Assembly (NCBI RefSeq): GCF_003751445.1
Contig: NZ_RJUU01000001.1
Coordinates: 439,001-503,000, forward strand
DNA from: Streptomyces sp. 840.1
Lineage (GTDB): Bacteria; Actinomycetota; Actinomycetes; Streptomycetales; Streptomycetaceae
Direction of reading: 5' to 3'
Length of the DNA stretch: 64,000 nt
Shown here piece after piece: positions 24,566-44,310 of the stretch. The stretch's first letter is position 1. Each line of letters opens with the position of its first letter. Below the pieces are notes generated by a model. That model was not told the origin of the DNA. It made no database searches and worked only from the letters and a program-made list of their open reading frames with translations. A program made the translations under genes and the position numbers.

Positions 24566-25957
24566 TCAGCCGACATCCAGACGCAGAAGATCTTCCTCCG
24601 TCTCGCGGCGGACGATGACCCGCGCCTGTCCGTCGCGCACCGCGACGACCGGCGGGCGCAGGGCGTGGTTGTAGTTGCTCGCCATGGAACGGCAGTACGC
24701 GCCGGTGGCGGGCACCGCGATCAGGTCGCCGGGGGCCAGGTCGGACGGCAGGAAGGCGTCCTTGACCACGATGTCGCCGCTCTCGCAGTGCTTCCCGACG
24801 ACCCGGACGAGCATCGGCTCGGCGTCCGAGGTCCGCGAGACGAGCGCGACGCTGTACTCGGCGTCGTACAGCGCGGTGCGGATGTTGTCCGACATCCCGC
24901 CGTCCACGCTGACGTACGTCCGCAGCCCCTCCAGGGGCTTGATCGTGCCGACCTCGTACAGCGTGAAGGCGGTCGGCCCGACGATGGCGCGGCCCGGCTC
25001 GACGGAGATCCGGGGGGTGGCGAGCCCGGCGGCCTCGCACTCACGGGTCACGATGTCACCGAGCGCCTTGGCGATCTCCTGCGGCTCGCGCGGGTCGTCC
25101 TCGGAGGTGTACGCGATACCGAGGCCGCCGCCGAGGTCGATCTCGGGCAGCTCGACGCCGTGCTCGTCGCGCACCTCGGCGAGCAGCTGCACCACGCGCC
25201 GGGCGGAGACCTCGAAGCCGGCCATGTCGAAGATCTGCGAGCCGATGTGCGAGTGGATCCCGATCAGTTCGAGCCCGTCGAGGGTGAGCGCCCGGCGGAC
25301 GGCCTCGGCGGCCTGTCCGCCGGCCAGCGCGATGCCGAACTTCTGGTCCTCGTGCGCGGTGGCGATGAACTCGTGGGTGTGGGCCTCGACGCCGACGGTC
25401 ACCCGGATCTGCACGGGCTGGCGCCGGCCGAGCCGCTGCGCGATGTGGGAGACCCGGACGATCTCCTGGAAGGAGTCGAGGACGATCCGCCCGACGCCGG
25501 CCGTGACGGCCCGCTCGATCTCGTCGACGGTCTTGTTGTTGCCGTGGAAGGCGATGCGCTCGGCGGGCATCCCGGCGTCCAGCGCGGTGGTCAGCTCGCC
25601 GCCGGAGCAGACGTCGAGGTTGAGCCCCTCCTCCTTCAGCCAGCGCACGACCGCGCGGGAGAGGAAGGCCTTGCCGGCATAGAAGACGTCGGCGCCGGGG
25701 CCGAAGGCGTCGGACCAGGCGCGGCAGCGGGCCCGGAAGTCGGCCTCGTCCAGGAAGTAGGCCGGGGTACCGAACTCCTCGGCCAGCCGGGCGACTTCGA
25801 TCCCGCCGACGGTCAGCGCGCCGTTCCCGTCGCGGGTGACGGTACGGGACCAGACCTTGTCGTCGAGGACGTTGAGGTCCTCGGCCGGGGCGGAGTAGTG
25901 GCCCTCGGTCATGACGTCGGCGTGGCGGGGACCGGCGGGGTGTGCGGATCGGCTCAT
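24566..25957 (-). CDS. lysA: Diaminopimelate decarboxylase
   Basis: The 463-residue PLP enzyme of the alanine-racemase-like (TIM barrel) fold carries FYAGKAFLSRAVVRW (PLP lysine), the HSHIGSQIFDMAGFEV loop, the GGGLGIAYT phosphate motif and the C-terminal GAYCRSMASNYNH. It makes L-lysine from meso-DAP. It lies 21 bp downstream of the ArgRS-like gene and upstream of hom, as in other Streptomyces. Confidence 0.97.
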   Translation of the reverse strand: MSRSAHPAGPRHADVMTEGHYSAPAEDLNVLDDKVWSRTVTRDGNGALTVGGIEVARLAEEFGTPAYFLDEADFRARCRAWSDAFGPGADVFYAGKAFLSRAVVRWLKEEGLNLDVCSGGELTTALDAGMPAERIAFHGNNKTVDEIERAVTAGVGRIVLDSFQEIVRVSHIAQRLGRRQPVQIRVTVGVEAHTHEFIATAHEDQKFGIALAGGQAAEAVRRALTLDGLELIGIHSHIGSQIFDMAGFEVSARRVVQLLAEVRDEHGVELPEIDLGGGLGIAYTSEDDPREPQEIAKALGDIVTRECEAAGLATPRISVEPGRAIVGPTAFTLYEVGTIKPLEGLRTYVSVDGGMSDNIRTALYDAEYSVALVSRTSDAEPMLVRVVGKHCESGDIVVKDAFLPSDLAPGDLIAVPATGAYCRSMASNYNHALRPPVVAVRDGQARVIVRRETEEDLLRLDVG

Positions 25958-25978: not shown

Positions 25979-27157
25979 TCAGAGGTACGGGGGCGCGCTG
26001 ATGCCGAGCAGGGACAGGCCGCCTGCGAGCACCGTCCCGGCGGCTTCGGCAAGAGCGAGCCGGGTGCGGTGGGCGGCCGAGGGTTTCTCGTCCCCGACGG
26101 GCAGGGGTGACGCGGCGTCGTGGAGGTCGAGGAACGCGTGCGCGACCGCTTCGAGGTGCCGGGCGAGCCGGTCGGGCGCGCGGTGGCGCGCCGCGGCGGC
26201 GAGCACGGCGGGGTGGTCGGCGACGAGGGCGAGGAGCGCGAGCGCCTCGGGCTCATCGAAAGCGGCTCGGCCGGGGGTGGGGGCGGGGCCCAGCTTCTGG
26301 CCCTGGTTCCGGTTCCGGCCGAGGTCCTGGTCCTGGTCCTGGTCCTGGGCGCGGTTCGAGTCCTGGCCGGGGGCCTGGCCGGGGTCGCTGGTGAACCCGA
26401 GCCGCTGGGCGCCGAGGGTGAACGTGTGGGCGCGGGAGTGGGCGTAGCGGACCAGGAACAGCGGGTTGCCCTCGCCCTGGACGAGGAGCCCGCCATCGAG
26501 CCGGGCGCGGTCGTGACCGGCCGGCCGGAGCAGCCCCCAGCGGGTGGCGTCGGGCCCGAGCCGCTCCAGCAGCTCCCCGGCGGTGGCGCCGGCCGGGACC
26601 GGCCGGATCTCCGTCAGCGGTACGGGGGGCCGGCCGTGGGCGTCGACGGCGATGCCGAGGCGCACCCAGTCCGGGTCGGAGGCCTCGTCGCAGCTGATGC
26701 GCACGGGCGCGCCCTGGGACCGTACGAGCCTGCGCACCGCGTCCGCGGTGACGGCGGCCCGGACCTCGCGGGCGTGGCTGAATTGCAGCGGCGTCCCGGC
26801 GAGCGCGTCGCCGTGTCCGTAGCGCAGCCCCTGGTCCAGCACCTGGCGCACGAGAGCGCCGTGGGCGTCGGCGGGGGCGTCGAGCGTGAAGTTCAGGAAT
26901 CCGGGTCCGGTGATCTCGACCCGCCCGATCCCCGGTGCGCCGGCCATCCGCTCCCGAAGGATCTCGGCCACCTCGCGCGCGGGCAGTGCGGCGGGCCCGG
27001 CCAGCTGGAGAGCGACGGCACTGGCGTAGTCGCCCCGGCCGCCCGGCCGCGTCCTCTCCACTCGCACGCGCGCGGGCACGGGCGCGTGCAAGGCGTCCTC
27101 GTCGACCGCGCGGCGCACGGCGTGCAGCACGGTCGAGGAGAGGTCGGCGGGGGTCAC
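25979..27157 (-). CDS. Degenerate arginyl-tRNA-synthetase-like protein with DALR anticodon-binding domain
   Basis: I choose the GTG at 27157 (VTPADLSSTVLHAVRRAV), giving 392 residues; no good ribosome site is visible, and a start 17 codons upstream is possible. The N-terminal Add-1-like domain ends GPGFLNFTLD as in ArgRS. The HIGH segment survives only as FSHAREVRAAVTADAVRRL, most of the catalytic Rossmann fold is missing, and the protein then passes to LGPDATRWGLLRP...NPLFLVRYAHSRAHT and a C-terminal DALR domain. A charged Asp/Gln repeat interrupts the helical domain near residue 280. Arginine activation is not expected. It may bind tRNA-Arg or act in Lys/Arg regulation (inference). Confidence 0.8.
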   Translation of the reverse strand: MTPADLSSTVLHAVRRAVDEDALHAPVPARVRVERTRPGGRGDYASAVALQLAGPAALPAREVAEILRERMAGAPGIGRVEITGPGFLNFTLDAPADAHGALVRQVLDQGLRYGHGDALAGTPLQFSHAREVRAAVTADAVRRLVRSQGAPVRISCDEASDPDWVRLGIAVDAHGRPPVPLTEIRPVPAGATAGELLERLGPDATRWGLLRPAGHDRARLDGGLLVQGEGNPLFLVRYAHSRAHTFTLGAQRLGFTSDPGQAPGQDSNRAQDQDQDQDLGRNRNQGQKLGPAPTPGRAAFDEPEALALLALVADHPAVLAAAARHRAPDRLARHLEAVAHAFLDLHDAASPLPVGDEKPSAAHRTRLALAEAAGTVLAGGLSLLGISAPPYL

Positions 27158-27865: not shown

Positions 27866-27937
27866 GCCCCCGTAGCTCAGGGGATAGAGCATCGGCCTCC
27901 GGAGCCGGGTGCGCAGGTTCGAATCCTGCCGGGGGCA
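27866..27937 (+). tRNA. tRNA-Arg (anticodon CCG)
   Basis: The 72-nt cloverleaf has a 7-bp acceptor stem (GCCCCCG with CGGGGGC), a D-loop with TAGCTCAGGGG, a 5-bp anticodon stem and loop CTCCGGA with anticodon CCG at 27899-27901, and a T arm GGTTCGAATCC. The CCA end is not encoded. It reads CGG codons, common in this G+C-rich genome. Its 3' end faces the accessory region; tRNA-Arg genes are frequent integration sites. Confidence 0.96.
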
Positions 27938-27990
27938 CTTTCACCGGACAGCGTGATCATTACGTTGAAAAAGTGAAGTGCCAGACTTCG

Positions 27991-30370: not shown

Positions 30371-31033
30371 TCACCGGCAGCCGGGCTCCGCGATCCCGGG
30401 CAGGACGTCGACCGGTGCGGCGCTCGCGACCGCCGCCGTGGCGCCACGGCCGGGGTCCTCCCATTCCAGCAGCGGGAGGCCGGCGCCGCCCGCCTTCAGC
30501 AGGGCCTCCCGGCGCACCCAGGCCCGGAGCAGTCCGGGGCCCGGGTCCCGCGAAGCGGCCGCCGCCCGCAGTTCGGCCTCGGGCAGCACCCGCCGCAGCA
30601 CCGCCATCGGGCCGGGCCGGCGGGTGGCGGGCTCCACGTCGATGCCCACGGCGCCGGGGCCGGCCGCCGCCGCGACCAGGCCCTGGGCGTGGCTCATGCT
30701 GACGCCGGTGCGGGGGCTGTCCCGGAGCGAGGGGCGGCCGTGCTCGTCCTGCCGGCACTCGGGGCAGAACTGGACGAGCTCGTGGGCGTCCGGGGCGCTG
30801 CCGGTGAAGCGTGAGGCGCACAGGCGCAGCAGGAGTCGCGCCGCGACCACGTCGTCGCGGCGGGCCGGCACCCGTATCCGGGCCAGGCGCCGTTGCTCCC
30901 AGGGGGCGAGCATGTCCGCGTCCAGCTCAGGGTGGGCCAGGACCTCCGCCGTGGTGGCCACCGCGGCCACCACGCGGCCGGGGCGCGGCCGGGGACGGAC
31001 GCTCAACGGCGGACGCTCATCCGGACGCCGCAC
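30371..31033 (-). CDS. Sfp-type 4'-phosphopantetheinyl transferase
   Basis: The 220-residue protein has the Mg-binding motif GIDVE (130-134) and the second signature WVRREALLK (172-180, the WxxKEAxxK motif with Arg for the first Lys). It moves phosphopantetheine from CoA to the serine of carrier proteins. Its GTG start overlaps the 3' end of the carrier-protein gene by 17 bp, so the pair is coupled and this carrier is the likely substrate. A Cys pair in FCPECRQDEHG replaces a loop of the usual form. Confidence 0.88.
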   Translation of the reverse strand: MRRPDERPPLSVRPRPRPGRVVAAVATTAEVLAHPELDADMLAPWEQRRLARIRVPARRDDVVAARLLLRLCASRFTGSAPDAHELVQFCPECRQDEHGRPSLRDSPRTGVSMSHAQGLVAAAAGPGAVGIDVEPATRRPGPMAVLRRVLPEAELRAAAASRDPGPGLLRAWVRREALLKAGGAGLPLLEWEDPGRGATAAVASAAPVDVLPGIAEPGCR

Positions 31034-31289
31034 CTGCGGCTGCCCCGGAGGCCGCCGAGGGGACGGGCGGGGTCAGGAAGGTCCGCTGTATGCGGTCGAG
31101 GGTGCGGAAGTCGTCGATGGTGACTTCCTGGAGGTCGATGCTGTTGCCGGAGAGCTCCTCCAGCAGGTCGATGAACTCCAGGAAGTCCATGGAGTCGATG
31201 AGGCGCGCCTCGATCAGGTCCTCGTCCGGGGCGAGGGCGCCGGTGAGGCCGGGGTTCTTCTCGTGGAGCCACGCGGTGATGCTGTCCAT
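31017..31289 (-). CDS. Stand-alone acyl/aminoacyl carrier protein
   Basis: The 90-residue protein is an acidic four-helix carrier with the phosphopantetheine site at Ser33 (LIDSMDFLEFIDLLEE; the usual DSL/DSM motif), followed by an Ala/Gly/Ser-rich tail. It lies between the aaRS-like ligase and its phosphopantetheinyl transferase. In characterised amino acid:carrier-protein ligase systems the ligase aminoacylates such a free carrier. A fatty-acid ACP is less likely from context. There is no DNA between the three genes for an independent promoter. Confidence 0.9.
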   Translation of the reverse strand: MDSITAWLHEKNPGLTGALAPDEDLIEARLIDSMDFLEFIDLLEELSGNSIDLQEVTIDDFRTLDRIQRTFLTPPVPSAASGAAAGAASG

Positions 31290-31381
31290 GGTGGGGAACC
31301 GTTCCTTGTCGTACGGGTGTTGTCGGAGCCGAGGCGGCCCGGAGCCGGGCCGCCTCGGCTCCGGGGTGAGCCGGAAGGCGC

Positions 31382-32239
31382 TCAGTCGCCGGCGCGGCGG
31401 AGCCGGTCGAGGGCCAGTTCGGGGGTGCCGTGGGCGAGGACCATCGCGTGGACCCAGCGCTCGACGCCGAAGGCCACGCAGGAGCTGTACACGGGTTCCT
31501 GGGAGCCCGCGCGGATGCCGAGCCGCTCGCCGAAGAAGTTGCGGTGCCGGTTGACCGAGGCGATCGCGGTACCGTCCGGGGCGCTGAACTCGTGCTTGAC
31601 CGGGTCCAGCATCATCAGACGGGCGCGGGATCCGCCCTTGTCGTAGAACGGGTCGTCGGCTGCGGCCCGGGTCAGCTCCAGGCCGAGCAGGGCGGCGGCC
31701 TCGCGGATGAACTCCGCCCCTCGGTCCAGGTGTTCGGATGCCCCGTCCTGGGTGCCGAGGTACAGCACCTCGCGCATGTGGAAGCCCCAGAGCCGCCGCA
31801 GCCCGTCGTAGTGGGTCTCGTTGCGGTAGCAGCGGCCGGTCGCCGAGAGCCTCAGCCCGTCCGCGCCGATGTCCTGTCCCTCCAGCGAGAGCAGGAGCCC
31901 GTAGCAGGTGGCGGAGGGCAGGAGGTGGCCGGTGGGCTCCAGCGGCAGGCCGCCCGGCTGCTGACCGCCGGCCAGCCCGTCGAAGGCGTCCGGGGCGAAG
32001 CGGCCTGCGGCGACACCGAGATGGGGGAAGTTGCGGAAGTAGTCCAGCCGGGACAGGCCCTCTGCGGAGAGCAGGGGCGGGCCCACCACCTCCGGTGCCG
32101 AGAGCCTGGCCGCCAGGCCCGTCAGCAGGGAGTCCAGTCCGTGCAGCAGGGCGGTGTGGACCGGGTCCAGTGGGACCAGTCCGGGTCCCGGGCTCTTCAG
32201 GGTGATACCCGACGGCTTCGTGGTGTCGGTTGTGCTCAT
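31382..32239 (-). CDS. Amino acid:[carrier protein] ligase (class II aminoacyl-tRNA-synthetase-like)
   Basis: The 285-residue protein looks like the catalytic core of an atypical seryl-tRNA synthetase without the tRNA-binding arm: motif 2 around GRCYRNE (Arg138) and motif 3 around AFGVERW (258-262). Cys112, Glu157 and Cys254 are placed like the Zn-binding Cys-Glu-Cys set of the published amino acid:CP ligases. It should adenylate a small amino acid (Gly, Ala or Ser-like) and load it on the carrier protein encoded next. AGGGAG lies 8 bases before the ATG. It reads divergently from the oxygenase operon. Confidence 0.88.
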   Translation of the reverse strand: MSTTDTTKPSGITLKSPGPGLVPLDPVHTALLHGLDSLLTGLAARLSAPEVVGPPLLSAEGLSRLDYFRNFPHLGVAAGRFAPDAFDGLAGGQQPGGLPLEPTGHLLPSATCYGLLLSLEGQDIGADGLRLSATGRCYRNETHYDGLRRLWGFHMREVLYLGTQDGASEHLDRGAEFIREAAALLGLELTRAAADDPFYDKGGSRARLMMLDPVKHEFSAPDGTAIASVNRHRNFFGERLGIRAGSQEPVYSSCVAFGVERWVHAMVLAHGTPELALDRLRRAGD

Positions 32240-32435
32240 GCAGACCGCTCCCTCTGAGCGTGGCGAGGAGAGCCGAGGAGATGGTCCATCGGCAGGGCGG
32301 AACGTTCCGGACCGCTGGTCGGGGCGGAGCGAAGTTCCTTGTGAAGGTGGCCATTTCGACGGAACGCACGGAATGCGCCGACGGAGGCTCCGTCAGGAGC
32401 CATGCCACGTAGGGACCTTAGGGCGGGTCGCCGTA

Positions 32436-32451
32436 ATTTGTCTAGACCAAA
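32436..32451. promoter_or_regulatory. DasR-like (GntR/HutC) operator, site 1
   Basis: ATTTGTCTAGACCAAA matches 12 of 16 positions of the dre consensus ACTGGTCTAGACCACT, including the full TCTAGACCA core. It lies about 200 bp upstream of the ligase operon. Confidence 0.5.
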
Positions 32452-32529
32452 GATGACGAAACACCTTGCTGACCCGGCACGTTGCCCACGGCGGTGACAA
32501 CGGCCCGCGCGCCCGTACCGGCGCGTCGC

Positions 32530-32558
32530 TTGACAGGGGTAATGGTCTGGACCACTGT
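32530..32558 (+). promoter_or_regulatory. Probable promoter of the oxygenase operon
   Basis: A perfect TTGACA at 32530-32535 is followed after 17 bases by CACTGT, a weak -10 element. The spacer contains most of DasR-like site 2, so binding there should block the polymerase. The leader would be about 210 nt. Confidence 0.45.
32541..32556. promoter_or_regulatory. DasR-like (GntR/HutC) operator, site 2
   Basis: AATGGTCTGGACCACT matches 14 of 16 positions of the dre consensus ACTGGTCTAGACCACT, with full TGGTC-N2-GACCA symmetry. It overlaps the probable promoter of the oxygenase operon. Confidence 0.65.
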
Positions 32559-32773
32559 GCTGATCGCGGGATCTCCACCGATCCGCCGGAGTGACCGCCC
32601 CCGATCCTGCCGTTCGCACTCTCCGCGGACAGCGGCGTGCTGCCCCTGGCCGAGAAGGAGTCCGTGTCCGCCATGCCCTTCTCACGCCTCCCGCGCGCCC
32701 TTCCTCCGGCGCCTGCCAACGGGACCCCGGGCGACCGCCGGGCCGCCCGAGTCCCCCTGCCCAGAAGGTCAGA

Positions 32774-33904
32774 GTGATACCCAACACCCCGCAAGGCTCC
32801 CGCCGTCCCCGGTTGCACCGGGCGGCGTCCGACCGTCCCTACTTCAGCGCCGACGGCGAGTCCTACCTCGCCCAGACCACCCTTCGGGAACTGAGCAAGT
32901 CGCGGCCGCTGCGGGTGCTGTCCGAGGAGGACTTCGCCCACTGGCAGACCTATGGCTACGTCGTCGTCCGCGAGGCGGTCCCCGCACAGACGGCCCGTCA
33001 ACTCCTCGACTTCACGTGGGACTTCCAGGGCCTCGACCCGGACCGGCCGGACAGCTGGTACGAGGACCGCCCGTTCCGCTCCCAACTGGACCGCCAGCTG
33101 CACGTCTACGGCTTCGTCGAGGCGTACCACCACCAGCTGCTGTGGGACAACCGCCAGGCCCAGCGGGTGTACGACGCCTTCGTCGACGTGTGGGACTGCG
33201 AGGAGCTGTGGGTCACCCTGGACCGGCTCAACCTCAACCCGCCCAACGTCGGGAACCGGGACCGCGCTCTCATCGACGCCACCGACCGGGGCTTCGACAT
33301 CGAGCTGCACTGGGACATCGACACCACGCTGGGCGTCCCGCCGCAGCGGGTGCAGGGCATCATCGCGCTCAACGACACCAGCCCGGAGACGGGCGGCTTC
33401 CAGTGCGGCCCCGAGCTGTTCCGGCGGTTCGAGGAGTGGAAGATCGGCCAGCCCGCGGACCGGGACCCCATCCGTCCTTCGGTGGACCGTTCCGAGTTCC
33501 CGGTCGTGCGGCCCGACCTGCACCCCGGTGACCTGCTGATCTGGAACGGCCTGCTCGCCCACGGGGTGGCCCGCAACACCTCGCGCGACGGCGTCCGGGC
33601 GGTCCAGTACCTGTCCATGATGCCCGCGCTGGAGGAGCACGAGAGGCTGCGGCGCTCACGCGTCGAGTCCTGGCGGCACCTGCGCACCCCGCGCTGGAAC
33701 CGCACCCTGGTCGGCGATCTCACCCAGCACGAGTCCAAGCGCTACCCCACCGCCACGCTCGACGGGCTCGGCAGCCGGCTGCTCGGCCTCACCTCGTGGA
33801 ACGACGCGGACCAGGAGCAGGGCCAGGAGCAGGTCCAGGGCCAGGACCAGGAGCAGCCCGCCGCCGGACGGAGCGAGGAGCCGTCGTGCGCCGCGTCTGC
33901 CTGA
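32774..33904 (+). CDS. Phytanoyl-CoA dioxygenase (PhyH) family Fe(II)/2-oxoglutarate oxygenase
   Basis: The GTG at 32774 with AGAAGG upstream gives 376 residues. The double-stranded beta-helix fold carries the iron triad H179-W-D181 (ELHWDID) and H263 (NGLLAHGVARN) with Arg275 for 2-oxoglutarate. The C-terminal 30 residues are a Gln/Asp/Glu repeat, probably disordered. In natural-product clusters PhyH enzymes hydroxylate free or carrier-bound amino acids, so the aminoacyl carrier is a reasonable substrate (inference). It overlaps the next gene by 19 bp. Confidence 0.9.
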   Translation: MIPNTPQGSRRPRLHRAASDRPYFSADGESYLAQTTLRELSKSRPLRVLSEEDFAHWQTYGYVVVREAVPAQTARQLLDFTWDFQGLDPDRPDSWYEDRPFRSQLDRQLHVYGFVEAYHHQLLWDNRQAQRVYDAFVDVWDCEELWVTLDRLNLNPPNVGNRDRALIDATDRGFDIELHWDIDTTLGVPPQRVQGIIALNDTSPETGGFQCGPELFRRFEEWKIGQPADRDPIRPSVDRSEFPVVRPDLHPGDLLIWNGLLAHGVARNTSRDGVRAVQYLSMMPALEEHERLRRSRVESWRHLRTPRWNRTLVGDLTQHESKRYPTATLDGLGSRLLGLTSWNDADQEQGQEQVQGQDQEQPAAGRSEEPSCAASA

Positions 33905-36900
33905 CCCTCCCGACGAACCGGCCCTGCGCCGAGACGATCGCCGCGGTCGCCGCGGAGGCGGCCCACGGCGCCCGGCACTTCGGCGTCGAGGTGCACCTGC
34001 TGATCCTGGACTCGTCCGACGCCCCGGCACTCACCGGGCACCGGGCGGCCGTCTCAGCTCTGCCCCGGGAACCCGGCGTGGTCGTCCACCACCTCGACGA
34101 GGCCCGGCAGCGGGCCTTCCTGCGGGAGGTGGCCACCGCGTCCGGCGTCGCCGACCCGGACCGGGTGCTCGGCCTGATGCTGCCCGACCGCGTGTCGTAC
34201 GGCGCCTGCACCAACCGGGCCTTCCTGATCGCGGAGGCGCTCGGCTGCGAATCGGTGCACCGCCGGGACTCCGACAGCCGGTACCAGAGCCTGGACGGCG
34301 AGCCGGTCTTCCCCCTCCACCAGGAACTGACCTCCCTGGGGCGGCGGGCCGCCGACGTCGCGGACCTGGTGTCGCGCAGCCGGCTCGACCCCGCGTACGC
34401 GCACCGGCCGGTGGCCATGGTGGGCGGCTCCTTCATCGGCGAGATGTCCGTGGACGTCGAGGAGATCCGCCGGCTCGACCCGGCCGTGCACCACGAACTG
34501 GTCGGGCTGTCGGTGCCGGAGGGGTATCCGGAGATCTGGCGGCGGAACCTGATCGAGGAGTCCTTCCGCGGCGCCGGGACGACTCCGTTCGCCGCCGACC
34601 TCACCACCCTCACCAGGGTCGCGCCGACCCGCGTCGACATGTGCAACATCGGCTTCGACAGCCGGGTCTACGGGGCGGTTCCGCTGCCGCCCGCCACGGA
34701 CACCATCGGCAGCGACTACTTCCTCATCCACCTGGTCCACGACGCCCGCCTCCCCGGCGTGCTGCACAACCGGCACATCGTCAACTACCACACCGGTGAA
34801 CGCCGTTCGGATGCCGGTTTCGTCGCCTACCAGGTGCGGCTGGCGAAGTTCCTGCTGTCGACGCCGTACTTCAACGCCGTGTACGCGGCAGCGGCGGCGG
34901 CCGGCGACACGCTGCTGGACCCGGCGGGCCGGGTCCGTCCCGACGCCGTCGCCGCGCTGGTCCGGGACAGCACACGGCTGGACCCGGCGGGGAACGCCGA
35001 ACGGTTCGACGTCATCGAGCGCTCCTACCGTGCGCTGGGCGGCCGGTACACGGCGGTCGCGGAGGCCCTCGCCGCGCACCGCGAACCGCTGCTCGCCGCG
35101 GCCAGGGCGGACATGGAGGACTTCGCCCTGCTGATCGACGCCTGGGAACCCCTGGTACGGGCCGCCGGACGCGCCGGCCTCGGTACCGGTGCCGGGACCC
35201 GGAGCGGGACGCCCCGGCCGGGGCAGGAACGTACGGTCACCGTCGCCTACGCGGGCGGCGAGAGGCGCCGGGGCCCCGTCACGATGGGGCAGGCGAACAT
35301 GATCCGCTGCATCCTGCGGGACGAGCCCCTGCACATCAACAACCACGACGTCTGGCCGGTCCCCCAGGGCGCCGCGCTGCAGCAGGTCCTCGACGCGCTG
35401 CGCGAACTGGTGGTACGCCACGAAGCGCTGCGCACCACCTTCCCCGAGCCGGCCGCCGGCGCGTCCCGCACCCAAGTCGTCGCCGCCGAAGGCGATTTCA
35501 CCGTACGCGTCCTGGACCACGAGGAGTTGGGCGCGGACCCCGCGCACTACGCCGAGACGGTCGCCCGGCAGGCCCGTGCGGGGCGGTTCCGGCTGGACCG
35601 CGACTTCCCGCTCCGCATCACCCTGCTCAGCCTGCGCGGAGCACCGGCCTTCGTCACCCTGTCCTCCAGCCACGCGGTGACGGACGGCAGCGCCCTGGCC
35701 GTACTGCGCGAGGAGTGGCTCGCGCTGCTGGACGGCGCCGGGCTGCCGCCGGTGGAAGCGCTCACCCCGCTCGATCTCGCGGCCGAGGAGGCGACACCGG
35801 CCGGACTGCGCAGGTCGGAGGCGTCACTGCGGTACTGGAAGCAGATCATCGGCACCGGGCCGCAGGAGATGTTCGCCGAACCGAGGGCCGTCCGCTCGGA
35901 CGGGCAGCAGCCGCAGCTCACCCTGCGCTCGCGGCGGGGTGCCCGAGCGCTCGCGCAGGCGGCCAAGCGCACCGGCAGCCCGTCGCCCACCGTGCTGCTG
36001 ACGGCGTGGTGCACGCTCGTCGCGCACCGCGCCGGCCAGTCCACCTGCGTCGCCGCCGCCCCGCTGTCCAACCGGTCGCGCCCGGGGCTCGCCCGCTCGG
36101 TCAACACCCTGTCGCAGGACGCGCTGCTCTCCCTCGACGTGCGGGGGCCCTCCTTCGACGCGGTGCTGCGCAAGGCGTGGGGGGCGGCGCTCGGCGCCTA
36201 CCGCCACAGCCAGTTCGACTCGGTACGCCTGTGGGAGGCGATCGAGGGGACCACCTTCGAACGGGGCAGCCACTTCGCGCGCGACGTGGTCTTCAACGAC
36301 GTGAGCGTCCTCACCGACACCCGCGCTCCCGCCACCGACAGCCGCACCGGGGACGCGCAGGACGCCGAACTCGACCTGGACTGGGGCCCGGTGCAGGTAC
36401 TGCCGACCCGCCTGCTGTGCTTCGCCTACCGGACGGACCCGGTGCTGCACCTCGGGATGTGGGCGGACCCCGCACTGTTCTCCCGGGAGGAGGCGGAGAC
36501 CTTCCTCACCGGTCTGGTGAAGCTGCTCGAGGTGGTCGCGTACGAGGACGTACCGCTGGCCGCACTGACGGAAGTCACCGGGATCCGGCCGGCCGTGCGC
36601 GCGGGCGACTGGCTGCAGGTGGACGGCTGCTGGACATCACCGACCGCCGTGGCGGGCGCCCTGAGCGACGCACTGGGCGGCCTGCCCGTACACGTCACGA
36701 CGGACGACGTCTCCGGACCCGAGCCGGTCGGCGATTCCCCCGGAGGCGGCCTGACCGCCTTCATCGCGTCCGGCGGCGCGCCACTCACCCCGGACGGGGC
36801 CCACACCGCGCTGATGGACGTGATCTCCGCGCCCGGCCCCGGCCATTCGGGACTCCTGGCGCCCACGCGATACGTCATCGTTCACGATTCGCCGGCCACT

Positions 36901-36984
36901 CCGGGCGAAAGCACCGCATGGCTCCGGCAGCGGATCCTCATGGAAGGGAACGGCCGTCACCGGCCGACGCGAGATGACCACTGA
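33886..36984 (+). CDS. Fusion of a glycosyltransferase-like domain and an NRPS-type condensation domain
   Basis: The GTG at 33886 with GAGGAG gives 1,032 residues. Residues 1 to about 440 form a GT-A-like domain starting VRRVCLTLPTNRPC, with a DSD metal motif at 128-130; I recall similar uncharacterised actinobacterial proteins as DUF6271 but cannot verify it. From about 450 a condensation domain follows (TMGQANMIRCIL; LRELVVRHEALRTTF), with the active motif SHAVTDG at 595-601: the first His of HHxxxDG is Ser, the catalytic second His is kept. The last 150 residues resemble no domain I know. It could join the carrier-bound amino acid to an amine or a sugar. It overlaps the exporter gene by 11 bp. 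Confidence 0.78.
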   Translation: MRRVCLTLPTNRPCAETIAAVAAEAAHGARHFGVEVHLLILDSSDAPALTGHRAAVSALPREPGVVVHHLDEARQRAFLREVATASGVADPDRVLGLMLPDRVSYGACTNRAFLIAEALGCESVHRRDSDSRYQSLDGEPVFPLHQELTSLGRRAADVADLVSRSRLDPAYAHRPVAMVGGSFIGEMSVDVEEIRRLDPAVHHELVGLSVPEGYPEIWRRNLIEESFRGAGTTPFAADLTTLTRVAPTRVDMCNIGFDSRVYGAVPLPPATDTIGSDYFLIHLVHDARLPGVLHNRHIVNYHTGERRSDAGFVAYQVRLAKFLLSTPYFNAVYAAAAAAGDTLLDPAGRVRPDAVAALVRDSTRLDPAGNAERFDVIERSYRALGGRYTAVAEALAAHREPLLAAARADMEDFALLIDAWEPLVRAAGRAGLGTGAGTRSGTPRPGQERTVTVAYAGGERRRGPVTMGQANMIRCILRDEPLHINNHDVWPVPQGAALQQVLDALRELVVRHEALRTTFPEPAAGASRTQVVAAEGDFTVRVLDHEELGADPAHYAETVARQARAGRFRLDRDFPLRITLLSLRGAPAFVTLSSSHAVTDGSALAVLREEWLALLDGAGLPPVEALTPLDLAAEEATPAGLRRSEASLRYWKQIIGTGPQEMFAEPRAVRSDGQQPQLTLRSRRGARALAQAAKRTGSPSPTVLLTAWCTLVAHRAGQSTCVAAAPLSNRSRPGLARSVNTLSQDALLSLDVRGPSFDAVLRKAWGAALGAYRHSQFDSVRLWEAIEGTTFERGSHFARDVVFNDVSVLTDTRAPATDSRTGDAQDAELDLDWGPVQVLPTRLLCFAYRTDPVLHLGMWADPALFSREEAETFLTGLVKLLEVVAYEDVPLAALTEVTGIRPAVRAGDWLQVDGCWTSPTAVAGALSDALGGLPVHVTTDDVSGPEPVGDSPGGGLTAFIASGGAPLTPDGAHTALMDVISAPGPGHSGLLAPTRYVIVHDSPATPGESTAWLRQRILMEGNGRHRPTRDDH

Positions 36985-38290
36985 CGAAGTGCTGGACCGG
37001 CCGGAGTCCCCGGATTCCGCTCCGCTCCCCAGCCCCTGGAAGTCGGGTTCCTTCCGGCTCTTCTTCACCGCCCGCAGCGCCTCGCTGCTCGCCGACGGCA
37101 TGCTGATGGTCTCGCTGACCACGGCCGTGCTGGGGGCCGGATACGGCGCCGGCGGTGTGGGATACGCGCTGGCCGCGTGGATGGCACCGATCGCCCTGCT
37201 CGTGCTGTTCGGCGGCGTGCTCGCGGACCGGTTCACCCCGCAGGTGATGATGGTCGGCGCCGACCTGGTGCGGATGCTGGCCATGCTCACCCTCGCGGCG
37301 CTGCTCCTCACGACCGAGGTGCGCCTGTGGCAGATCATGGCCCTGATGGCGCTCAGCGGCGCCGCGACCGCCATGTTCCAGCCCGGGGTAGCCAGCATGG
37401 TTCCGCAGGTCGCGCCGGACATCCAGCGGGCCAACGCGCTGCTGCGGATATCCGAGGCGATGAGCGCGCTGGTCGGCCCCGGCCTGGCCGGTCTGCTGGT
37501 CGGCTACTGGCAGGTGGCGGGCTCCTACTTCGTGATCGCGGCGGCCTACGGGCTCAGCGCGCTGGTCCTCGTACCGCTGCGCAGGCTCAGCGTCGTCCGG
37601 GAGGAGGGCGACGACCCGGTGCTGCACCGCCTGAAGGCGGGCTGGCAGGAGTTCCGCTCCCGCTCCTGGCTGTGGGGCGTGATCGTCGTCTGGGCGATCT
37701 ACGGCCTGTTCGTCTTCGGGCCGGCCCTGCCGCTGGGCGCCGCCCTGCTCACCGAGCAGCACGGGGCGGACGGCTACGGCTGGATCGCCTCCGCCGACGG
37801 CGCCGGAACGATCGTCGGCGGCCTGCTCGGCATGCGGGTACGGCCCACCCGCCCGCTCGTCGCGGGAGCCTGCGCGATGTTCTGCTTCGCCCTCAACCCC
37901 CTGGCCCCGGCCCTGGGTTGGTCCTTCACCGCCACCATGCTCACCGGGGTCCTGGCCGGCTGCGGCTTCGCCTTCTGGGGGGTGATGTGGGCGACCAGTG
38001 TGCAGTCCCACATCCCGCTCGCCGTGCTGAGCCGGGTGTACGCCTACGACGTCGCCGGGTCCATCATGGCCATCCCGCTGGGCAGGGCCCTGGCCGGCCC
38101 GGCATCCGAGGCCTTCGGCGCGGACCGCGTGCTGCTGTTCTCCTCGGCCGTCTCGGTGGTGTGTCTGGCCGCCATGCTGAGCGTGCCCGCCATCCGCCGC
38201 CTGGGCCGGGAGCCGGGGAAGGCCGACGCGCTGGAGTCGCCGATCACGGCGGAGGAGGTGCCGGCGGTCGGGCCGGCGGGGGCTGTGTGA
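36974..38290 (+). CDS. MFS exporter
   Basis: The 438-residue protein has about 12 membrane helices of the MFS_3/enterobactin-exporter type (first loop LFGGVLADRFTPQ; AMFQPGVASMVPQV between helices 4 and 5; LRISEAMSALVGPGLAG). It overlaps the fusion gene by 11 bp, so it is translated with it, and it most likely exports the cluster product and gives self-protection. No other transporter lies in the cluster. Confidence 0.9.
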   Translation: MTTDEVLDRPESPDSAPLPSPWKSGSFRLFFTARSASLLADGMLMVSLTTAVLGAGYGAGGVGYALAAWMAPIALLVLFGGVLADRFTPQVMMVGADLVRMLAMLTLAALLLTTEVRLWQIMALMALSGAATAMFQPGVASMVPQVAPDIQRANALLRISEAMSALVGPGLAGLLVGYWQVAGSYFVIAAAYGLSALVLVPLRRLSVVREEGDDPVLHRLKAGWQEFRSRSWLWGVIVVWAIYGLFVFGPALPLGAALLTEQHGADGYGWIASADGAGTIVGGLLGMRVRPTRPLVAGACAMFCFALNPLAPALGWSFTATMLTGVLAGCGFAFWGVMWATSVQSHIPLAVLSRVYAYDVAGSIMAIPLGRALAGPASEAFGADRVLLFSSAVSVVCLAAMLSVPAIRRLGREPGKADALESPITAEEVPAVGPAGAV

Positions 38291-39061: not shown

Positions 39062-42000
39062 TCAACGCCGCCTCCACGGGGGCGGCATCTTGTATTCCCC
39101 ATTGTTCCGGATGACTTTCTCTCCATCATTCGTCAGCCTCAACGCCCGCTCATAGTCACCAAGAGGAACTGGATTGTGACTGAGAGTTGGATCGTAGACA
39201 TAACGCCCGTCCGTATACACCTCATGGAAGGTGTAATCCTCAATATCCACACGGGCGCCGGCGCGTTCAGGGATCCTGATGTCACCGCCCGAGAAAGTCG
39301 TATAGTGCACTATTCTACCTTCCCCATCGGCTCTGCGAGATATGAAAGAAGCGATGTCGGAGCAGTCAACCTCCGGGCCTCGGGGTGCCGCTCTCATTAC
39401 ATCAGTGAGGTTGGCACTTGGCGGATGAGCGGAATTTGGTTCCCGAAAGTCGTAGGGGCCGCGCGGGCATGGCGAAAGCCCCAGAGGATCTGACCAGGTA
39501 TGTGGATTATGGACGTAGGTACTGGGGTTCGGTGCGGCGGCCAAACCGAGTGGGTCAGAGCTGAAGTACCGCGCAGTTTCCGGGTCGTAGTGGCGGTGAA
39601 AATTGTAGTGGAGACTCGTTTCCGGGTCGAAGTACTGCCCCGGGAAGCGCAGCGGGATGTATGAGGTGCTGGACGCCGCCCACGTAGTCGTGCCCCACAG
39701 AGTGGCACGCGTCCGCCACGCGATAGCCCCCCGCTCGTCAATGAGCTCGGTCGGCGTACCAACAAGATCTGTGACGATCGAGAAGAAGCGCTCGTTGATC
39801 TCGCTCTGCGGTACATCCTTGGCCAGTATGCGTTCGGTCTGGGCCACAGGACGCATGTCGTGATAGTCCCAAGTCACCGAGACCGGGTGGGGCAATATGG
39901 GAGAGTACGTCACCTGCTCGCACAGAATGGGGCCATCCCAGATGAAGTCCACCCTCTCCAGCGCGGTCGAGCCGTCGGGGGCCAGTCGCCGCTTCCCTAT
40001 GCGCCGCCCCACAGGGTCGTAGAGGTAGCGCCACAGGGTTCCGTCGGGTGTGGTGACGGCGGCAAGTCGATCCTCGACGCCCCAGCGAAAGCGCCAAACA
40101 TCTGCCTTGCGCGAGAGGCGCTGTCTCCTGCGCAGTACAACGCGCCCCTGAGTGTCGTACTCGTAGTGCACGTTTCCTGCTTGAGTGATGCGCGTGCCGC
40201 GGTAAAGCCGAGGCCCTGTGGCTTCCTGCCCGGGATGTGAAGATGGCCAGACCGCATTCGTTTGGTTTCCGGCATCGTCATAGGTGTACTGCTCTGTCCA
40301 CCCTGCTGCATGGACCGCAGTTACTCGGCCTGTGGTGTCGAGGTCGAAGGTCCGCGAGCCATTGAGGTCATCGTGAATACTCGTGAGGTGCCCATCCGTG
40401 CGATAGGCGTAAGCACGACGCTGGATGGGCTCACCTTGCGCCCCTGTCACTGATTGGCTAGTGATTCGACCTACTTCGTCGAGGGAATTCTGTATGGTTA
40501 CAGCCTCGTTTATCTGGCGGACGACTTCCCGCCCGGCCACGTCGTAGCCAAACCGGAATGTGCGCCCCGAGGTTGTCAACTCGTTGCATCGACCTGCCCG
40601 GTTGTACTTCCAAGTACTGATCACACCGCTCGGCGTCTTGCGCCCTGTTCTGCGACCGATAGCATCGTAGGTGAACTCGATTATGCCGCCATTGACGGTC
40701 TCAGACTTCAGGCGGCCATTTCGATCACGCAGCCGCGTCAACGTCGCATCTGGGCCAATAGCCAAGGCGATTTCGTCGAATAGGTCGTACTCAAAAGTGG
40801 TGACCGCGCCCTGCGCCGTCTTGCGCAGGGTCTGGCCAAGCGCGTTGCGTTCGTATTCCACGGTATGGCCAATACCGTCGGTACGCGATATGAGATGCCC
40901 GGCATCGTCGTACACGTAACTCAGCGTACGAGAATCAAAGTCGGTTTCGCTCACGATCCGGCCGGCCGGATCGTAGTCATAACTCCATGATTGGCCCTGG
41001 GGGTTGAGCACCCGAGTCAGGCGCAGCCCGACATCGTGGCTGAACTCGTACCTCACGCCATCCGGCTCGGTCCGTGCCACCTGCAGATCGAAGCTCGTGT
41101 ACTCAAAAGAGGTCGTCCCGCCGGACGACGCAGTGTGGGAAGTGCAGTTACTCTCGCCGTCGTATGTCCAAGACTCGTAGGAGCCGTCGGCTTCGATTTG
41201 GCGAGCAAGCTTCCCCTCGACTGTCCATTCGAAGGAGATGGTTGCGCCAAGAGGGCCGGTAACTGCAGCGAGGCGACCGAAGCAATCCCGTGAGTAGCGG
41301 ATCGTGGCCCCCGACGAATCGGTGAACTCGACGGGAAGTCCCGCGGGGTCGCAGCGAAGCTGCGAGGCACGGCCAAGGGCATCCGTCACTGATATGAGAT
41401 TCCCCGCGTCGTCGTACAAGAACCGAGTCGTCAAGCCTGCAGAGTCTGTGGTCGCGAGACGATTACCTCGCGCGTCGTAAGCACTGCGTAGAACGGTGCC
41501 GTCTGTTCTCCTCACAAGAACGGGCAGCCCTAGAGCGTTGAACTCCGCCGTAGCCCTGCGTCCGTCCGCGCGCTCCACGACAACAGGCCGGCCGTGCTCG
41601 TCGTACGTCGAGCGGCTGACGTGTCCCAGTGGGTCGGTGACGGACAGCAGCCGGTGGTATTGGTCGTATTCGAAGCGGGTGACAGCTCCCAGTGCGTTGA
41701 TCTCGGCTATGACCTGGGAGCGGTCATTGATGACGTACCGGGTGGTGTGGCCGAGGCCGTCGGTCATGGAGGTCATGCGCAGGCCGGTGACGGGGTCGGT
41801 GTCGTCCCAGGTGAAGTGGGCTTCGAGGTAGCCGTTGGTGCCGGCCTGGTGGATGCAGCGGTCGTGTTCGTCGTAGACGTATTCGTAGCGGCTGTTGTTG
41901 GTGTCGGTCCACGCGGTGATGCGGCCGTGCTCGTCGCAGTCGAAGCGCAGGGGCTTGCCTGAGGAGTTGGTGGTCGCGGTGAGGTGGCCGTCGGTGTAGC

Positions 42001-43762
42001 CGTAGCGCAGGATCTCCTGGTCGGTGCCGTCGGGGGCGGCGCCTGCCAGGTGGAGGGCGGTGACTCTTCCCTCGTGCGTGGTGAGCTTCAGGTGGTAGCC
42101 GCCGTGGTGGACGATCGACGTCGGGGCGCCCGTCTCGTCGTACTCGAAGGCGATCCATCGGTTGTTGCGGTCGTCGATCTGGGCCAGGAGCGCCAGTTCG
42201 CCGTTGGAGTGGTCGGCGAAGTAGCGGACCTGGCCGGTGTCCGGGTCGGTGATGGTGTAGCCGTCGTCGACCCGGTCCAGGGGCCAGCGCCGGCCGTGCG
42301 TCGGCAGGACGGGAACGCCGGGCGCGGGGTGCGGGTAGGCCAGCAGGCTGCCGTCCTCGGCGCTGAACACCACTCCTTCCGCGTCGATCTCCAGGCGCTG
42401 GTCGACCGTGCTCGACCAGCCGGACCCGAACCAGTTGCCGGCCCGGTAGGAGGAGTCGAAGACCCGCTCGAAGGCGAGAGGCAGCGATCCGGGCAGCGCG
42501 ATGTCCGTCTGCGGAAGCAGCATGCGGCCGGTCGCGACGTCGATGGGGTCACCGGCGCATTTGACCTCGCTGCACTTCTTGGCGCTGGAGGCGGGGTTCT
42601 TCTCGTGGCCGCGGCGGCCCTTGCCCTTGGGGTGTTTGAGGAGGTCCTTCATTCCGGCGCGCAGACCGCCCTTGAGCAGGCCGCCTCCCTTGGTGCCGAA
42701 TACTTCGGGGACGAGTCGGCCGAGGAATTCGGCGGGGTCGCCCTTGGCTGCGCTCCAGGCGTTCTGCAGTGCCCGGTCGGGATTGGCGGCGGTGGATGCG
42801 AGCCCGGCGAGCGTCGTGTTGACGCCCTTGTAGTACTCGGCCGGGTGGGTCAGGTTGTAGGGGTCGAGCGGGTCGACCGAGCGGACGAAGTTCAGTATCC
42901 CCGCGGTGCCCTTGAGGACTCCGCCGCCGAAGTGGGACAGCTCGATTCCCTGGCCGACCTCGTAGTCGATGAGCTCCTGCTCGGCGCGGGCCAGACCGGT
43001 GGGCTCCTTGGGTGCGTGTGCCATCGCCGCGGTGATGGCCGACTTGGCCACTTCGGCGGCCTCGTTCCGCGCCCGCCGCGCGTCTTGCAGGATCTCCTGG
43101 GCGTGCTGGCGTTTGGCCACGCCCGGATCGGTGAACTTTCCCGGATGCGGGAGCGGATGATCGGTGTTGCGGACCGCGTTGTACGCCTCCGCCTTCTCCT
43201 TGAACGCGGCTGCGGCACGCTCGTAGTCCTGCTTGCTCTCCTTGTAGAGAGCTATCGCCTCAGTGGCCTTGGCCTGCGCGCTCGTGACCGTGCCGCAGTA
43301 CGTCTCCAACGCCCCCGCAGCGTCCTCGAACGCATCCGCCGCCCGCAGCCAGTCCGTCGGCAGCGTCTCGAACTTCGCCCGGAAGGCATCGGCAGCCGCA
43401 CCCTTCCAGTGACCGGAGTCGAGCCGTTTCATCCCGCCGCCGACGAGATCGAACGCCCGGTGGAAGTCCCGGAGGTTCGTCACCGTCGCGCTGATCTTCT
43501 CCGGCCGGCCATGGATCAGCTCGTCCGCTTCCTCACTCTGACCGAGCTGCTGCTCCCCGATCTCCGCACCCAGTGAGGACGCGGTCTCGTCGCCCCAGTC
43601 CTCGACCGTGTCCGCCCACTCGTGCGCACCGACCTTCTCCAGGCCCGAGCCGACGATGTCGGTGCCCTCGTCGACGACCTCACCGACGACCTTCTTGCCC
43701 TTGTCGACCAGCTTGCCCGCACCGTCGTACAGGTCTCCGCCGAGCTTCCCCCAGTCCACCAT
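39062..43762 (-). CDS. RHS-repeat polymorphic toxin with papain-like C-terminal domain
   Basis: The ATG at 43762 has GGGGGAG and overlaps the upstream stop (TGATG), giving 1,566 residues. The order is: a helical WXG/LXG-like N-terminal domain (about 80-220), a DUF6531-type domain from about 400 (CAGDPIDVATG), more than 20 YD/RHS repeats, the core end DPLGL near 1425, and a toxin tip. The tip has Cys1467 (VDCSDIA), His1513 (TFHEVY) and Asp1524 (YVYDP), consistent with a papain/NlpC-like peptidase or deamidase triad. The N-terminal domain suggests type VII-like export. The 3' half has lower G+C than the 5' half. Confidence 0.88.
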   Translation of the reverse strand: MVDWGKLGGDLYDGAGKLVDKGKKVVGEVVDEGTDIVGSGLEKVGAHEWADTVEDWGDETASSLGAEIGEQQLGQSEEADELIHGRPEKISATVTNLRDFHRAFDLVGGGMKRLDSGHWKGAAADAFRAKFETLPTDWLRAADAFEDAAGALETYCGTVTSAQAKATEAIALYKESKQDYERAAAAFKEKAEAYNAVRNTDHPLPHPGKFTDPGVAKRQHAQEILQDARRARNEAAEVAKSAITAAMAHAPKEPTGLARAEQELIDYEVGQGIELSHFGGGVLKGTAGILNFVRSVDPLDPYNLTHPAEYYKGVNTTLAGLASTAANPDRALQNAWSAAKGDPAEFLGRLVPEVFGTKGGGLLKGGLRAGMKDLLKHPKGKGRRGHEKNPASSAKKCSEVKCAGDPIDVATGRMLLPQTDIALPGSLPLAFERVFDSSYRAGNWFGSGWSSTVDQRLEIDAEGVVFSAEDGSLLAYPHPAPGVPVLPTHGRRWPLDRVDDGYTITDPDTGQVRYFADHSNGELALLAQIDDRNNRWIAFEYDETGAPTSIVHHGGYHLKLTTHEGRVTALHLAGAAPDGTDQEILRYGYTDGHLTATTNSSGKPLRFDCDEHGRITAWTDTNNSRYEYVYDEHDRCIHQAGTNGYLEAHFTWDDTDPVTGLRMTSMTDGLGHTTRYVINDRSQVIAEINALGAVTRFEYDQYHRLLSVTDPLGHVSRSTYDEHGRPVVVERADGRRATAEFNALGLPVLVRRTDGTVLRSAYDARGNRLATTDSAGLTTRFLYDDAGNLISVTDALGRASQLRCDPAGLPVEFTDSSGATIRYSRDCFGRLAAVTGPLGATISFEWTVEGKLARQIEADGSYESWTYDGESNCTSHTASSGGTTSFEYTSFDLQVARTEPDGVRYEFSHDVGLRLTRVLNPQGQSWSYDYDPAGRIVSETDFDSRTLSYVYDDAGHLISRTDGIGHTVEYERNALGQTLRKTAQGAVTTFEYDLFDEIALAIGPDATLTRLRDRNGRLKSETVNGGIIEFTYDAIGRRTGRKTPSGVISTWKYNRAGRCNELTTSGRTFRFGYDVAGREVVRQINEAVTIQNSLDEVGRITSQSVTGAQGEPIQRRAYAYRTDGHLTSIHDDLNGSRTFDLDTTGRVTAVHAAGWTEQYTYDDAGNQTNAVWPSSHPGQEATGPRLYRGTRITQAGNVHYEYDTQGRVVLRRRQRLSRKADVWRFRWGVEDRLAAVTTPDGTLWRYLYDPVGRRIGKRRLAPDGSTALERVDFIWDGPILCEQVTYSPILPHPVSVTWDYHDMRPVAQTERILAKDVPQSEINERFFSIVTDLVGTPTELIDERGAIAWRTRATLWGTTTWAASSTSYIPLRFPGQYFDPETSLHYNFHRHYDPETARYFSSDPLGLAAAPNPSTYVHNPHTWSDPLGLSPCPRGPYDFREPNSAHPPSANLTDVMRAAPRGPEVDCSDIASFISRRADGEGRIVHYTTFSGGDIRIPERAGARVDIEDYTFHEVYTDGRYVYDPTLSHNPVPLGDYERALRLTNDGEKVIRNNGEYKMPPPWRRR

Positions 43763-44310
43763 CAGCGGTTCTCCCCCCACCGCGGCTTCTCGGCCCGATC
43801 GATCGTCTCCTGCGACGGATCGAGCTTCTGCTTCAGCTGTTCATCCGCCGCCGCCCGCACATCCGGGTCCACCATCCCGGAGCGCTCCATCGAGTCGAGC
43901 AGGGAATCCTCCACGTCGTAGGTCGTGTCCTTCCAGGTCTGCTTCACCTCGTCGTGCGCCTCCAGCATCGACTTCGCACTCCAGTCCGGGTTGTCGTACG
44001 AGGTCTGGCTGCTGATCGTGTCCCAGCTCTTGTCCTTGACCTCGTCCTCGGACAGGTGCGGATTCCCGTTCAGGGAGTTCACGCCGATCTTCACCGAGTC
44101 CTTTACGTACTGCTCCTGCTCGGCGAAAGACCCAGCCGACAGCCCCACGCCCAGCGCGAAGCCGTTGCCCTTCTGCGTCAGAGCCCGCACACCCCACTCC
44201 CAGCGATCGCAGAACGTCCCGAACTCCGACGTCAGCCCGCCATGCCCCAACTCCAGCCCCGACAAAGCGAGATCGGAGAATCCCCGGCCCATCGACGCCT
44301 GTCCGATCAT
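43762..44310 (-). CDS. RHS toxin partner protein, frameshifted at its 5' end
   Basis: The open frame gives 182 residues from MIGQASMGRGF, a helical, Trp-containing protein of the kind found upstream of Streptomyces RHS toxins, possibly an export partner. Upstream, a start at 44404 (ATGA overlap with the SseB-like stop) reads MSGEGSELRVPPEA, then an extra base near 44361 shifts the frame to EIAKGIDLAHAELKDLG, which continues in frame into MIGQ. The intact gene would be 43762-44404. The ATG at 44310 has AAGGA seven bases upstream, so a shortened protein may still be made. Confidence 0.68.
   Translation of the reverse strand: MIGQASMGRGFSDLALSGLELGHGGLTSEFGTFCDRWEWGVRALTQKGNGFALGVGLSAGSFAEQEQYVKDSVKIGVNSLNGNPHLSEDEVKDKSWDTISSQTSYDNPDWSAKSMLEAHDEVKQTWKDTTYDVEDSLLDSMERSGMVDPDVRAAADEQLKQKLDPSQETIDRAEKPRWGENR

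Follow-up and report, generated by a model that had tools for sequence, protein, structure and literature searches.

Amino acid:carrier-protein (aa:CP) ligases have reportedly been known since 2010, in work that PMC9437257 cites, and to our knowledge no product pathway has been established for them. What could such an enzyme be doing in a compact gene cluster? We address this question in a window of 64,000 nucleotides from Streptomyces sp. 840.1, where a sequence-only reading had placed a six-gene cluster at 30371..38290. All six genes are open at these positions, and the set proved intact and conserved.

A six-gene cluster with its own ligase and carrier

The genes diverge, with the ligase, carrier protein (CP) and 4'-phosphopantetheinyl transferase (PPTase) on the minus strand and the PhyH oxygenase, DUF6271-condensation fusion and MFS exporter on the plus strand. 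The plus-strand genes overlap by 19 nt (PhyH/fusion) and 11 nt (fusion/MFS). On the minus strand, a 92-nt gap separates the ligase from the carrier, and the carrier and PPTase genes overlap only if the latter starts at 31033. The earlier description of two divergent, overlapping operons therefore holds for the divergence, but 'overlapping' is fully true of one operon only. Values of dN/dS between 0.05 and 0.52 in 21/21 comparisons (7 gene parts against 3 close loci), together with conservation, rule out a chance or artefactual origin. Control by bldA was rejected because none of the six genes contains a TTA codon. Scanned neighbours of the cluster include a GH5 cellulase, an ArgRS-like protein and LysA.

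The ligase-like protein (31382..32239, minus strand, 285 aa) aligns over residues 30-273 to Bll0957 (phmmer 3.3e-22, ~82 bits), in keeping with its first description as a tRNA-synthetase-like aa:CP ligase. The homologous region is a class II aaRS core, and the tRNA-binding domain is absent. Residues C112, E141 and C254, which we take to form a Zn site, align with the Cys/Glu/Cys of Bll0957 and are invariant in 70 rows. A SerRS-like class II core without a tRNA-binding domain and a Cys/Glu/Cys site are likewise features of the Bradyrhizobium aa:CP ligases (Bll0957, PDB 3mey/4h2w). Against NF005479, the amino acid--[acyl-carrier-protein] ligase equivalog, the protein scores 97.6 bits, below the curated cut-off of 357; judged by its sequence, it counts as a relative and not as the equivalog. 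A small carrier gene lies near both Bll0957 and the window ligase, but the latter, unlike Bll0957 systems, is tied to PhyH, DUF6271, a condensation (C) domain and an exporter.

The carrier (31017..31289, minus strand, 90 aa) is of type II, and a profile built from 16 carriers hits peptidyl carrier proteins of the PDB at 1.4e-7. Its presumed phosphopantetheine site, Ser33 (codon 31191..31193, minus strand), had been correctly assigned and is invariant both in 69 aligned rows and across 16 A-type and C-type carriers. The PPTase (30371..30973, minus strand; GTG start possible up to 31033) is Sfp-type as proposed (PF01648, 3e-10), and the MFS exporter gene (36974..38290, plus strand; PF07690, 5.5e-23) was also correctly named. 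A domain search of the six genes gave no AMP-binding (adenylation, A) match, again as claimed. Canonical NRPSs use an A domain to activate the amino acid, whereas this cluster has only a possible relic of one (A_sub, the A-domain C-terminal lobe). 'NRPS-independent' is a loose label, since the C domain belongs to the NRPS type and has that possible leftover lobe behind it. Type II NRPS parts (PCP 2my5; C domains SgcC5 4znm and CmnI 9uay) resemble the window in having a separate carrier and C domain; they differ in that the window has no A domain, an aaRS homologue as ligase and a C domain with a possible A_sub relic.

The sequence-only reading had named missing co-occurrence of the ligase, carrier and fusion genes in other genomes as one of two refuting outcomes, and this outcome did not arise. 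Across 199 same-genus genomes, 18/18 close ligases lie within about 3 kb of DUF6271, and gene order is kept in 18/18 mapped close-ligase loci. We assembled 70 loci that hold both PhyH and a close ligase, comprising 63 distinct ligase sequences and including a mosaic locus (L168) and contig-cut loci. DUF6271 is found in 70/70, the carrier in 69, the exporter and a homologous C domain in 67 each, and the PPTase in 65.

PhyH, DUF6271 and the condensation domain

The PhyH-family Fe(II)/2-oxoglutarate oxygenase (32774..33904, plus strand; PF05721, 4.8e-9) has an upstream in-frame GTG at 32591. Its HxD...H triad (H179, D181, H263) is intact, as first noted, and is invariant along with R275 in 71 rows, one of which is an extra query copy. 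In SyrB2-type halogenases, HxA or HxG replaces HxD; a halogenase reading of PhyH was ruled out, with HWD invariant in the aligned rows.

Where PhyH acts is a separate matter. The sequence-only reading had the ligase load a small amino acid, PhyH hydroxylate the carrier-bound form and the C domain couple it; on this line, DUF6271 would make or hold the acceptor. Some PhyH-family enzymes do act on amino acids bound to a carrier, for example SyrB2 and SyrP, and 18/18 mapped loci keep carrier, ligase and PhyH side by side. However, the gene order of PhyH is tied to DUF6271, which it adjoins in 41/41 mapped loci, and not to the carrier; a 68-80% identical PhyH also adjoins DUF6271 in clusters lacking both ligase and carrier. 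We consider hydroxylation on the carrier unlikely, and favour an oxygenase that works with DUF6271. Among 20 further, more divergent DUF6271 loci, PhyH is labelled in 6 and not labelled in 14.

The DUF6271-condensation protein (33886..36984, plus strand, 1032 aa) matches PF19787 at 725 bits and PF00668 at 72 bits. The fusion is present in the window as described but is not a conserved trait: the two parts are fused in 14 and split in 53 of the 67 loci with a C domain, and we rejected fusion as an essential feature. The C domain (35365..36540, plus strand; PF00668) carries SHxxxDG, whose His and Asp do not vary across 25 sequences; the first His of HHxxxDG is Ser. For the tail that follows (36541..36984, plus strand), hhalign gives E 0.075 to an A-domain C-terminal lobe, and 11 of 50 VIA rows extend all the way to the end of C-A structures. 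An A_sub relic here is only suggestive.

The DUF6271 part (33886..35205, plus strand) has a GT-A fold with a GT75 core and helices. Its best fold match, over 314 residues, is GT75 (MtdL; plant UAM/RGP NDP-pyranose mutases), with apparent counterparts of the DxD, metal His and general-base Asp of MtdL in a by-hand mapping. Identity to GT75 is 12%, and neither for Arg159, the autoglycosylated Arg of MtdL, nor for Arg257 did we see an invariant equivalent; across 73 DUF6271 sequences, the Arg159-matching region, mapped by hand as hhalign returned no usable alignment, lacks an invariant Arg. A profile link to GT75 was not found (hhalign probability 0.13, E 0.44, against a shallow 3-sequence GT75 profile). 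With no detectable profile relationship, we do not file DUF6271 as GT75, and the link is one of fold only. In another reading, DUF6271 would be a GT75-kind enzyme, either an NDP-sugar mutase or epimerase-like, and would provide an unusual donor sugar, with glycosyl transfer or sugar use taking place elsewhere. We find this improbable: the Arg159 that MtdL requires has no invariant equivalent by hand mapping, and the six-gene set holds no other glycosyltransferase.

Of 200 genomes sampled from the bacterial family, 101 carry DUF6271. With profile A1, most of what a PDB search found came from the C domain of the fused rows; 2o34 appeared as a single-sequence match (5.5e-5 over ~70 residues). In the literature searched, which had most subscription papers outside its scope, no paper names DUF6271 and no description is recognisable as this cluster.

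Paired dre-like sites in the divergent promoter

The dre element is the operator of DasR, a GlcNAc sensor. Between the two operons lie two 12-bp dre-like cores, TTGTCTAGACCA (32438..32449) and TGGTCTGGACCA (32543..32554), each with one mismatch to the DasR operator consensus A(G/C)TGGTCTAGACCA(G/C)T as given in PMC4398421 and PMC6097792. The second core is closely preceded by a -35-like box, TTGACA (32530..32535, plus strand), which begins at most 14 nt before a core in 68/70 loci.

Cores of this kind occur in 65/65 distinct A-type promoters, a count that leaves out L149 and L168, where genes lie between ligase and PhyH; these two loci have two dre-like sites each, at 2 mismatches. The paired cores are 102-106 bp apart in at least 44/64 A promoters, and in the S. 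clavuligerus pSCL4 promoter only one core was found. Upstream regions of B-type loci contain cores at one mismatch or fewer in 32/53 cases versus 0/1060 shuffles that preserved two-base blocks, not full dinucleotide content. The sites might instead bind another GntR/ROK-type regulator, or be kept for some other reason, leaving the cluster outside GlcNAc control. Several A-promoter cores carry one or two mismatches, and the whole-genome core count, 29 against 26 for a reversed control pattern, is hardly in excess, so that DasR is argued for by position, pairing and conservation. We nevertheless regard a non-DasR explanation as improbable, given the cores in every distinct A promoter, their recurrent spacing, their absence from 20 C-type loci and the known DasR-type targets next to the same core elsewhere in this genome, where it adjoins nagB, a GntR/UTRA regulator gene, NagE-type PTS genes and chitinase genes (15 of the 29 places inspected). 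DasR control, the preferred reading, would place the cluster with a regulon sharing dre-like palindromes, the core of which also stands beside nagB, NagE-type PTS and chitinase genes here; paired putative sites on an uncharacterised biosynthetic cluster set it apart from known DasR targets. As read from the sequence, dre-like operators in this divergent promoter appear to be a new observation.

A two-module model and its relatives

From the sequence-only interpretation we keep the wide co-occurrence of a ligase-like enzyme with its own carrier, PPTase, C domain and exporter, and drop carrier-bound hydroxylation and the conserved fusion; dre-like operators, the GT75-like fold and module exchange were absent from it. 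We judge the chances to be evenly balanced that these genes form a small, co-inherited natural-product cluster of two modules (PhyH with DUF6271; ligase, carrier, PPTase and C domain) with MFS export and DasR control. Module 1 would probably yield a carrier-free building block, with PhyH hydroxylating a small substrate and DUF6271 using a nucleotide sugar on that substrate, or preparing the sugar. Module 2 would charge the carrier with an aminoacyl group as a thioester. The predicted direction of transfer is from there, through the C domain, to an amine or hydroxyl of the module 1 product, which the MFS protein would export. Through the paired sites, DasR probably keeps the divergent promoters repressed until GlcNAc-derived signals release it, suggesting GlcNAc or chitin as a simple switch for the cluster.

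Related loci bear on how module 2 arose. Among the best 80 of 321 loci by similarity to the window's DUF6271, a sampling that over-represents the A type relative to B, 46 are A-type, 3 are contig-cut and A-like, and 31 are B-type (mosaic included). The ligase-free B type has a LysA-like decarboxylase in 18/20, a GNAT in 18/20 and an MFS protein in 19/20 loci. With decarboxylase and GNAT in the place of module 2, that module may replace acyl-CoA acylation by aminoacyl-carrier acylation. A broader and distinctly tentative proposal is that DUF6271 is the hallmark of a so far unrecognised family of glycoconjugate natural products in Streptomycetaceae that respond to chitin or GlcNAc. Its GT75-fold enzyme, devoid of the self-glycosylated Arg, would have turned into a genuine transferase acting on a small and often hydroxylated acceptor. 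One branch would have swapped GNAT and acyl-CoA for an aaRS-derived ligase, a carrier and a C domain, and an aa:CP ligase would then have a definite place in a pathway. DUF6271 gains a fold and a proposed, testable enzymatic role.

The window ties an aa:CP ligase-like gene to a compact cluster that is widely conserved and includes an exporter, and odd loci hint at the recruitment route of this gene. Distance-matrix correlations of 0.77-0.89 fit co-inheritance and species history alike. In the PhyH tree, A-type loci form a single clade (100/98); they do so too in the DUF6271 tree (100/96), where the contig-cut L131 joins them. The mosaic L168 is sister to the A type in both trees, and in the ligase tree it falls among A ligases, not outside them. 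This locus hints that ligase and carrier may have been recruited from an AurF-type cluster.

The six-gene cluster and its distribution

A six-gene set at 30371-38290, with all genes intact, constitutes a real, conserved biosynthetic cluster. On the minus strand lie genes for an Sfp-type PPTase, a carrier protein (90 aa) and an aaRS-like ligase (285 aa); on the plus strand, genes for a PhyH oxygenase, a DUF6271-condensation protein (1032 aa) and an MFS transporter. This is the parts list of the sequence-only reading, which was right. Gene assignments came from Pfam except for the ligase, which found no match in the Pfam library used and fell under the family cut-off in NCBIfam. Among solved structures, it matched the aa:CP ligase Bll0957 (3.3e-22) and type-2 SerRS (3.5e-5). 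Ligase residues Cys112, Glu141 and Cys254, invariant across 70 rows, align with the Zn ligands of the solved enzyme. Carrier Ser33 is likewise invariant across 69 rows. In the PDB, a profile built from 16 carriers matched peptidyl carrier proteins (1.4e-7 at best). A Pfam search with the carrier of locus L042 gave no match.

Comparing the cluster's genes with three close loci gave dN/dS values of 0.05-0.52 in all 21 comparisons. The window's genus was sampled with 199 genomes, of which 65 had a DUF6271 match, 61 some ligase relative and 18 a ligase at 77% identity or above. The search for the set elsewhere proposed by the sequence-only reading bore out the co-occurrence: by coordinates, DUF6271 lay within about 3 kb of this close ligase in 18/18 genomes. 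In all 18 mapped A-type loci (the window and L042-L058), PPTase, carrier and ligase genes run in that order on one strand and diverge from PhyH, DUF6271, condensation (C) domain and MFS on the other; flanks vary. We also assembled 70 loci from all sources with a close ligase and PhyH (63 distinct ligase sequences, counting contig-cut loci and the mosaic L168), which contained DUF6271 (70), carrier (69), MFS (67), a homologous C domain (67) and PPTase (65). Plasmid pSCL4 of S. clavuligerus F613-1 bears the whole set. DUF6271 matches concentrate in Streptomycetaceae (101/200 family genomes versus 5/396 phylum genomes, all five from the window's own genus).

Two modules and their origin

PhyH and DUF6271 also occur together in 20/20 mapped B-type loci, none of which has the ligase or carrier. 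As separate genes, these loci encode a LysA-like decarboxylase (18/20), a GNAT protein (18/20) and another MFS transporter (19/20). Proteins in which DUF6271 is joined with the decarboxylase, GNAT or both also exist. Since PhyH and DUF6271 function together in carrier-free loci, the proposed hydroxylation on the carrier is disfavoured. Twenty C-type loci picked for a distant ligase had a same-cluster carrier (16/20) and an AurF-type oxygenase (18/20), with PhyH and DUF6271 in 0/20. The earlier pathway of loading, hydroxylation, coupling and export is better recast with two modules, which DasR probably controls. PhyH may not be an inseparable partner, as it was unlabelled in 14 of 20 further, more divergent DUF6271 loci (labelled in 6). 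Eight of these 14 are Kitasatospora-like loci with DUF6271 and GNAT (L103, L104, L106-L108, L111, L114, L115), and several have in common a large set of adjacent genes that includes a PPTase. The separate AurF-type family of clusters with ligase and carrier (L082-L100; for example, L093:6994-12604) often carries a nitronate-monooxygenase-like (NMO) protein, an alpha/beta hydrolase, a second carrier and a PPTase, and could possibly N-oxygenate an aminoacyl-carrier.

Trees, rooted for drawing only, bear on how the modules met. In the PhyH tree, A-type sequences form a single clade (100/98) whose sister is L168 (100/97), and one branch separates B-type sequences from both. The DUF6271 tree groups 22 A-type rows with the contig-cut L131 (100/96), again with L168 as sister (100/99), and B-type rows are scattered at several places around this clade. 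L168 (Streptomyces sp. TRM64462; L168:2-12612) is a mosaic combining PhyH, DUF6271, decarboxylase and GNAT with an AurF-ligase-NMO-methyltransferase-carrier array and a pair of ABC genes; its contig ends just past the carrier. L149, the earliest A-type branch in both trees, has an ABC pair of the same kind and a different C domain. We infer that an AurF-type cluster supplied ligase and carrier to a decarboxylase/GNAT-type cluster, which afterwards shed decarboxylase and GNAT and picked up a C domain. In the ligase tree, A-type ligases and L168 form a clade (100/98) adjoined by the AurF-type L082 (97/91). Because L168 falls inside the A-type ligases, paired with L149 (86/82), its ligase may instead have been transferred in later.

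dre-like sites and probable DasR control

The divergent promoter contains two 12-bp cores, TTGTCTAGACCA at 32438 and TGGTCTGGACCA at 32543, resembling the operator (dre) of the GlcNAc sensor DasR, whose consensus is A(G/C)TGGTCTAGACCA(G/C)T (PMC4398421, PMC6097792). At two or fewer mismatches, the whole window holds 4 cores versus 1.15 expected. Across 65 distinct A-type promoters from 68 loci, all had at least one core at one mismatch or fewer, and 64 had two or more at up to two mismatches; shuffled promoters had a core in 1/1300. Spacing was 102-106 bp, about ten helical turns, in at least 44/64 promoters, and TTGACA begins 14 nt or less ahead of a core in 68/70 loci. The pSCL4 promoter has one core. 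Judged from these motifs, the promoter is probably under DasR control.

Cores at one mismatch or fewer also occur in 32/53 B-type upstream regions (500 nt; shuffles 0/1060). Eighteen regions had three or more mismatches, and 14 of the 16 inspected had a core elsewhere in the locus. Kitasatospora-like loci had a core in 7/8, about 0.7 kb or less upstream of DUF6271 in 6, and searches found cores in 0/20 C-type and 0/4 distant DUF6271 loci. Counting against DasR control, the core is hardly commoner genome-wide than its reversed control (29 versus 26 places). All 15 places examined were intergenic. Genes scanned next to them included nagB, one for a GntR/UTRA regulator, two of the NagE-type PTS and three for chitinases (two GH19, one GH18), but also RNase PH and an MFS gene adjoining an FtrA-like regulator. 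A further link to GlcNAc is a GH3 beta-N-acetylhexosaminidase-like protein, a separate gene in 15/20 B-type loci (L062-L081; for example, L062:6014-13545).

Elsewhere in the window, a large Rhs/YD-repeat gene (39062-43780) directly adjoins the cluster within a lower-GC stretch (about 0.62). A protein at 25979-27157 has ArgRS N-terminal and DALR domains but, at the threshold applied, no match to a catalytic domain; it adjoins LysA (24566-25912) and a tRNA-Arg gene (27866-27938).
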